Part shown: in pieces, positions 10,201 through 13,200 of the stretch
Layout of the letters: every line of letters starts with the position of its first letter
Position numbering within the stretch: the stretch's first letter is position 1
DNA from: Cristatella mucedo
Lineage: Eukaryota > Bryozoa > Phylactolaemata > Cristatellidae
DNA: 64,000 bases
Assembly (NCBI GenBank): GCA_009760855.2
Contig: WPIO01000005.1
Location: forward strand, 988,501-1,052,500
Direction of reading: 5' to 3'
Made by a program: the position numbers and the translations under genes
Notes under the pieces: model-generated
The model's input: the letters and a program-made list of their open reading frames with translations, nothing else
Told to the model about the DNA's origin: nothing
Databases searched by the model: none

Positions 10201-13200
10201 CTGCTTTTCTTGCAGCAAGCTATAAAACGCTCGAATGGAGATCCAATTCCTCTTAGGGTGCTGCACACGAGTTACTACTATTAGCATCATCATGGGTAAC
10301 CTACCAAACTTGAATAACAAGCAATGAGTGAAAACCAGGCGAGGGCGGATTGAGAGGCACAAGGTTGCCAAACCAGACTGACCACCGCACTTACATCGTC
10401 CGGGTGTTCGACTGTCGTCAGGCTGTCGCCTATACAACCAGCAGAGTCGGATTCGTTGTCCAGTTCATTCACCGTACAATCTACAGGCATCGTGTAGGCT
10501 TGCGTAGCCATACAAAATATGTCGTCTGAAATGAAAGACATCAGCATGCATCACCACTTCAACCATTTTCGTAGCAGACAACACTCGAGCATCCTAGTAT
10601 CGGAGCGCAATCCGAAACTGCAAAATCTCAGTTCAAAAGGCAGCAGCTGGCAACGTCCAGAACACAATCCTGTAGAGCGTGCACAGAATTGCACATCCTT
10701 TACTAAATGCACAAAATAAAGACAGTAAAGTCCCTTGCTCCCAAAGACACACAGGTGGCAGCATAGGCCAACTACTGGACGTCCAAAGACCATAGCTGAG
10801 CCTCACACAGCCCTCACTCCGAGTTACAGATTGCGCGGCTCAGCCAACCGATAGCCTGCTTTTCGAAGTACGCCACGTTTACCTTCTCTGTCTGCTGGAC
10901 GAATGGGTGTGGACTGCTGCCAGCCCAAGGCAGACTGATGCAGGCTGCTGCCATCACCGCCCCCTTCGCCACCTCTGCGCGTTCTCTCGGCGGATGAAAC
11001 TGCTTCCTCGCCGTTGGGGGAGACAGCAGCAGATGATGATGCCATACTGTCAGCCACAATGCCACACGGTGAATCCGGCGGTTCAATGGCATCCTACAAG
11101 CACAGCAGGCAAGAATATAGTCTGCCACGACAACTGCTACTCAGAAAAACTGGCTCTTGACCCTGAAGTGTCCAATCACGATTCAGTGTGCTTTAACCAA
11201 TATCTCTTTAAAAAAAAGTAGTAGAAAATGGCAAAGCATCGCTGCCAGACAACTAGCTGCCCATTTAGACCGAAATGTCCACTCAATGAGTCGACCAGTA
11301 TCAGCTGATTCAACAGCCTTATAAAATATAATTCATTTATATAGCACCCTAAGAGAACTTAATCTCTATTCAGGTACTTCACATATGCCTCGGGGCTCGA
11401 GTCCACGACCTCAGTCAGACCTTGGTCGGGGCGAGCACCTGAACCGCTAGACCAAACCAGCCTTGTCAATGATATACCTGTATTGGCATAACCACCTTAG
11501 CAGTGGTCGTACTGCTTGCATCAAGCACCAAAAATTGCCTGCTGCAGGGCTAGAACTCTGTGCCATCTGTGTGATGTCGTGCGAGTGCACTACCACTCAC
11601 AGGGCAAGAAACCAGCTGAGATGTCTCGATCGGGCAACGCCATTAGCCACTGGAAGGCCTTGCCCTTTCGCAAGAAGTGATGTTGTGGACTTCGAACATG
11701 GCAGCAGTCAACTGATGGGCACGTCATGTTCTTCCGGCTGCATAAGACGCAAACGAATAATTGACCATTCAGTCCTTCTTGAGAACAAGGAAATTGACCA
11801 ATTAACCATTCAGCCGTTCTGCAGAGCCAGGAAATTGACGAACGGTCGTGTGGCAGTACAATTTTCATTACGCCAATCCGGCAGGTCATGACACATAACC
11901 CAACATGGCATGTACTCCCAACGGCTTAAGCTTCTCTCGATGAGCATCCAGCATAGGCCTCCCCCTGAAACCGCGCGCTTCTGCTCTTTTCGCACAGCAT
12001 CACAGGCCATTTAGTTGTGCAACGTAAGATCAAGCTTACTTGCCCACTAAAGGTGCAGCGATGCTTATGCTGGCACCTTTAGTTAGGCCCTTCATTTGTC
12101 CATTCGGTCCCCCTCCCTTGCCAGTGAGCATCAGGTCATGTGAATGCTTGGCCGACATTGGCTCGAGAAAACTTACAAACTCCCTGGAGCTTAGAGATGA
12201 CAAGCAATGGGAGTACCTATGCACTGGTGAAAATCTTGCACTGGTGTCAAACGAAGGCAGGTGAACAATGGCAACTGGAGTGTGAGTGGTCTGATGAACA
12301 GAAAGTGAAAATTAGGTGTAATTTCTACAACCGATCTAGCACCAATAAATTGACATAAAGAATACCCATCCTTGCCACTTTCACGCCGTCCAAGTTTCGA
12401 TTAAATTGCTGCCAAGTTCGGTTCCTGTCATTGACAGCTTAAGTTGAGCTTTTGGCAATCCCTAGGCTGGATTGACCTCTGTACCACTGTTTGCCGATCT
12501 CCCACTAAACCAGCGGTTCTCAACCTGTGGGTAGTGACCCCTTTGGAAGTCGAACGACCCTTTCACGGAGGTCGCCTAAGACCATCGAAAAACACGCATC
12601 TCCACATTTTGCACACAATAATTTCATGGTTGAGGGTTGCCACAACATGAGGAACTGTATCAGAGGGTCACGGCATTAGGAAGGTTGAGAACCACTGCAC
12701 TAAACACTCTAAGAAGCTAAAAATAGTGCCCCAACTTTGCAATCACGTTAGCACGTCTGTACCAAAAATCTGCCAGCACTCACAATGCCACTTGACTTCC
12801 TGGTCGGCAAAGAGTGAAGCTTCGTCTATGACTTTAAGGTACTCAGACGCGATGTTAAACTGCTGCTTCGAAGTTGGCCTTTGCAACCCGAGCAGCTTGC
12901 ACAAACGCCGTGGGCCATTGGTTCAATTGCTTTCACTGCAGCCTACCAGCCCTTACTGTGCAATGCATACTGCTTGCTTCAAGCTGATGCAGCTCAGACA
13001 AACGAAGATTCAGGCATTAGCTTTTAAATTCCAACATTTTCGAGAAAGAATGATCACGCCCAAGCTGAGTCACAAGAAGGACTCACACGAAGTCGAGAAC
13101 CTGACTCTCAGAATGTCCTTCCGTCTCGAACATGAATCCTACGTCGTGACTGCCGTGAATAGATCACTGCTGATGGCATATCTCCCATCTCCGTTCTCTG

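Follow-up and report, generated by a model that had tools for sequence, protein, structure and literature searches.

A large family of short SPIN-type hAT elements, probably acquired horizontally, in an invertebrate genome

SPIN (Space Invaders) elements are the standard example of DNA transposons that have moved between animal phyla, and they are also present in a planarian and a pond snail. The accessible part of one report names SPIN_NA_12_RP and SPIN_NA_13_RP from Rhodnius prolixus and describes four transferred families that are up to ~98.1% identical to vertebrate ones (PMC11614815). Excerpts of two further papers give 385 SPIN elements for the painted turtle (PMC4054807) and a SPIN-like hAT with ~1,000 copies for Biomphalaria glabrata (PMC5440852). 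In the portions available, PMC5331948 and PMC5791352 name SPIN in their reference lists alone, and PMC4298943 treats other transferred elements. That vertebrates and a small number of invertebrates carry SPIN is already established, and the family described here would probably add one more invertebrate case.

We analyzed a 64-kb stretch of DNA, here referred to as the window, which sits in a 13.6-Mb contig (C550) of an assembly of 572,011,866 bases in 688 contigs. A sequence-only reading of the window had described a 187-bp unit with matching inverted ends and a perfect 8-bp duplication, and all of these details proved right to the base (Table 1). The terminal inverted repeats (TIRs) are 16 bp long and thus short, as is characteristic of the hAT superfamily, and an open frame of transposase size is absent from the unit. 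When up to 3 mismatches are allowed, the TIR is found in the window at just its own two places. Chance alone would give 0.57 such matches, and two were reached in 6/100 shuffles, so that the window, taken on its own, is weak evidence for an element.

Table 1. Parts of the SPIN-type element and its flanking duplications, in window coordinates
Feature	Position	Strand	Evidence
Left target-site duplication, CACTAAAC	12503-12510	+	8/8 vs right copy
5' terminal inverted repeat, CAGCGGTTCTCAACCT	12511-12526	+	15/16 complementary to 12682-12697
187-bp non-autonomous element, very likely SPIN-type hAT	12511-12697	+	Copies, consensus; no transposase-size ORF
3' terminal inverted repeat, CAGTGGTTCTCAACCT on minus strand (AGGTTGAGAACCACTG as forward end)	12682-12697	-	
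Right target-site duplication, CACTAAAC	12698-12705	+	8/8 vs left copy

The window also contains other repeats. Four frames appear to be what is left of two or more kinds of non-LTR retrotransposon (18235-19365, 25473-26282, and 46323-46805 on the minus strand and 48852-49415 on the plus strand). The first is alone among them in having a Pfam reverse transcriptase match, and a JGI metagenome protein is an 87% relative across 59% of this frame. Two tRNA-like sequences on the plus strand, at 38311-38383 (Lys) and 41562-41635 (Val), are followed by sequence that appears similar by eye, and they are possibly the heads of a tRNA-derived SINE. A 34-bp unit is present in perfect tandem duplication at 15449-15517.

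Searching the assembly with the window element yielded at least 41 matches, with the best 40 of 2,205 first-look candidates scored, a set that leans to close copies. Identity was 88 to 100% over at least 180 of the 187 bases for 40 of the 41 scored matches (window included) and 80% for the remaining one, and by manual count the copies are spread over 34 contigs. We then queried the genome with the first 31 bp of the family consensus, allowing up to 3 mismatches, and obtained 1,054 places (526 + 528), of which 62 are exact by manual count; the reversed control gave 0. The sequence-only reading had proposed a genome-wide count and had named, as a result that would count against it, a single copy with flanks identical to a contaminating species; what we found were 1,054 near-exact 5' ends, hence not a single copy, and copies on many contigs. 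The family is large, with about a thousand dispersed copies of a SPIN-type element.

Duplications of the insertion site recur throughout the family. We compared the flanks of 41 copies (39 stretches with 40 copies, plus the window copy) with a control in which left and right flanks of different copies were cross-paired. The flanks agree at 6 or more of 8 bases in 36/41 copies, against 105/1640 control pairs, and at all 8 bases in 11/41 copies, against 1/1640; the other 5 copies fall under 6/8. A number of the compared flanks resemble each other via other repeats, so that not every flank is unique. In a second sample that overlaps the first (n = 20, exact 5' end, 2-base shift allowed), a duplication of at least 6/8 was present in 13 copies, and 7 fell below that level. 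On the left flank, the duplications have the consensus CTCTAGAG, and the right flank differs at position 6 alone, where A (15) and G (14) are nearly balanced. Position 4 is T in 34 (left) and 37 (right) of the 41 copies, and position 5 is A in 37 and 36. SPIN elements prefer targets like nTCTAGAn, and the consensus of the duplications accords with this preference. The flank duplications are the product of hAT cut-and-paste insertion, seen here many times; the earlier reading, which would have been undone by a lack of 8-bp duplications at other copies, is borne out in this respect.

A consensus built from the 41 copies is 187 bp long, and the median copy lies 5.9% away from it. The window copy is 7.5% divergent, with 14 differing sites that comprise 13 transitions and 1 transversion. 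For a less biased sample, we used the first 20 of the exact 5'-end places, omitting one that had already been used; 2 of the 20 are shared with the first set. The earlier reading had proposed measuring the divergence of the copies; outside the first 31 bp, the median K2P distance in these copies is 0.100 (n = 20, range 0.067 to 0.219) in a sample that needs a perfect 5' end and is still tilted to young copies. In all but one of the 20, the match to the consensus extends at least as far as base 172; these copies are 178 to 194 bp long and are clearly the short form. In the exception (L088), which has the highest distance, the match stops at base 138, and a 3' end was not established. None of the 20 sampled copies has a separate 3' end up to 3.5 kb away. 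Three of the eight copies with odd inner junctions were read, and all three are mutated short copies. Since the copies are ~10% diverged, the burst that produced them is old, and among the copies looked at it is finished. If a generic rate of 2 to 5 substitutions per site per billion years is assumed, 0.10 substitutions per site corresponds to about 20 to 50 million years.

The sequence-only reading had suggested looking for an autonomous SPIN transposase in the same assembly, and among the loci covered here none was found. A profile search of the assembly with PF05699, in which 150 of 766 candidates were scored, gave at least 138 matches, 63 of them strong by manual count. An autonomous SPIN was found neither at 30 loci of strong matches, the part of the 138 that was inspected for ends and in which SPIN ends are absent, nor at the 20 sampled 5' ends, of which 19 belong to short copies and 1 lacks an established 3' end. 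A young PF05699 hAT was considered as the autonomous partner and was rejected, given that its ends differ (TAGGGCTGTACCGGA) and that none of the 30 loci matches SPIN. This second hAT family (L048-L081, on many contigs) is ~3.2 kb long, and in L080 and L081 it lies between perfect duplications of 8 bp (GTTATGAT and CTAGTAAG, respectively). Its open frame of 640 aa contains zf-BED and hAT dimerisation domains and is weakly similar to Hermes. When the other 29 loci of L048-L077 are aligned to L053, their main pieces are 98.96 to 99.89% identical to it, and the family is probably very young and recently active.

Two lines of evidence bear on the host. A 21,008-bp contig (C688) is mitochondrial, and its COX1 frame stays open when the invertebrate mitochondrial code is applied. 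Genetic-code assignments tell animal groups apart, and we read the COX1 codons by eye against the best solved chain. The 11 AGA/AGG codons fall on Ser in 3 cases (NNMSFW, VKVFSW, LSF), Ala in 4, and Thr, Gly, and Lys in 1 each, with 1 outside the alignment; ATA falls on Met in 9/12 cases and AAA on Lys in 2/2, and TGA is read 15 times. Vertebrates are disfavored by in-frame AGR in COX1, tunicates by AGR at conserved Ser, and echinoderms and flatworms by ATA as Met together with AAA as Lys; the code as read fits a protostome. With gene names other than COX1 assigned by eye, the mitochondrial gene order appears rearranged: COX3-ATP6-COX1-ND3, a repeated region, and ND1-ND6-CYTB on one strand, and ND2 and COX2 on the other. 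The repeated region includes a partial second ND3, and GC content is 44% in L102.

The other line comes from the window, where an exon of a PWWP2-like chromatin protein (29106-30803, plus strand) has mollusc PWWP2A-like proteins as its best named matches. In a tree, the exon is placed among scallop, snail, and unnamed rows and away from those of fish and hemichordates, with support of 91/94, which is below the tool's starred level and accompanies a long branch that leaves the placement unsure. We conclude that the host is a protostome, possibly a lophotrochozoan. A vertebrate host, such as a lamprey, was first considered from composition and repeats and was rejected in view of the exon and the mitochondrial code. 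A tick host, suggested by GC content alone, was rejected in view of the genome size (572 Mb) and features of COX1.

The sequence-only reading had held that the internal blocks of the element agree with SPIN, and such agreement is seen against a provisional reference. This reference was a rodent-type SPIN consensus not taken from a database and written out after the family consensus had been seen, a comparison that is not blind; the family consensus agrees with it at 85/85 bases of the 5' block and, on the 3' side, at 80/81 bases of the block there. Over the whole alignment to the provisional sequence, the family consensus agrees at 179/186 bases and the window copy at 166/186 (89%), and the reading had placed the level at which a SPIN assignment would fail at under about 75 percent outside the inverted ends. 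Search patterns written before any consensus existed carry wildcards that fall exactly on the 4 departures of the window copy (of 14 overall) that lie inside the patterns. Furthermore, a mouse Scd1 primer (ATCTGTTTTCCGATGGTCTT), printed in the available part of PMC9482360, contains the reverse complement of 17 consecutive family-consensus bases. Searches of other collections returned no relatives: exact DNA patterns for SPIN gave 0 in viral contigs and prokaryote genome contigs, which include no animal genomes; blastn of the element against phages and plasmids, and a protein search with its four translated frames, gave none; and the 15-base 5' end had no match in printed sequences of the literature. 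A printed match to an element word in a Tetrahymena paper was judged from its listing to be chance. From these comparisons, we consider it very likely that the family belongs to SPIN. The copies could instead be a different hAT-Charlie-type MITE, native to the lineage and having only the widespread CAGNGGTTCTCAA ends in common with SPIN, given that hAT-Charlie families share such ends and that our comparison draws on a provisional sequence rather than a database reference. However, agreement across 85 bp at the 5' side and 80/81 bp at the 3' side reaches far beyond the 16-bp repeat, and 17 consecutive internal bases occur in a mouse genomic primer, so that a native MITE appears improbable.

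Near-identity to vertebrate SPIN in a protostome argues for horizontal transfer, strongly so if the provisional reference is right, and the SPIN-type family was probably acquired in this way. We propose that an autonomous hAT-Charlie-type SPIN would have come from another animal and reached the germline of an ancestor of this protostome. A short internal-deletion derivative would have retained ~100 bp at its 5' side and ~85 bp at its 3' side and would have been cut and pasted in trans by the autonomous SPIN transposase, with staggered cuts and gap filling giving rise to the 8-bp duplications. The burst may then have ended, the transposase copies would have disappeared through decay or loss, and the element copies would have mutated neutrally since. 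We have high confidence in this account as a whole, in which the unit at 12511-12697 would be a single, decayed representative of a SPIN-type miniature hAT transposon, horizontal entry and the trans-mobilised deletion form included. Vertical inheritance from a distant protostome ancestor, with no transfer, would agree with a burst whose age, from divergence and the assumed rate, is tens of millions of years and with the related hAT reported in a snail in the available part of PMC5440852. Such inheritance is nevertheless highly improbable: the copies are ~10% from their own consensus, yet that consensus is 1 base in 166 from the provisional rodent SPIN in the outer blocks, and noncoding likeness so high is not expected since the protostome-deuterostome split. 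Contamination of the assembly, with the element on foreign (for example, vertebrate) contigs, has a negligible probability, as we found no point that supports it, the 41 copies lie on 34 contigs that include the window's own, and the mitochondrial contig of the assembly has a protostome-type code. Within the horizontal account, a more specific version is tentative, and we regard it as possible rather than likely: SPIN would have entered a protostome phylum without a prior description of it, roughly when the vertebrate wave took place, and would have left one 187-bp deletion form in >1,000 copies with no recognizable transposase remaining.

With about a thousand copies, a clean consensus, and measurable divergence, one more invertebrate would be a datable node for the SPIN transfer network, and the family bears on the question of which hosts or parasites carried SPIN. 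Among known systems, the provisional rodent-type SPIN/SPIN_NA (hAT-Charlie) has in common with this family the 5' block (85/85), the 3' block (80/81), TCTAGA-like 8-bp duplications, and a short, high-copy, non-autonomous form. The middle differs from the provisional rodent SPIN, as it is ~40 bp shorter here and has its own junction, GCATTTCCACATTTTGCACAC, giving a length of 187 bp in place of ~225 bp. Set beside it by description, the SPIN_NA of Rhodnius prolixus is, in the accessible part of PMC11614815, alike as a non-autonomous SPIN in an invertebrate, although that host is a blood-feeding insect and the host here is a protostome. The SPIN-like hAT of Biomphalaria glabrata, likened by its description in the available text of PMC5440852, has a similar copy number and an invertebrate host.
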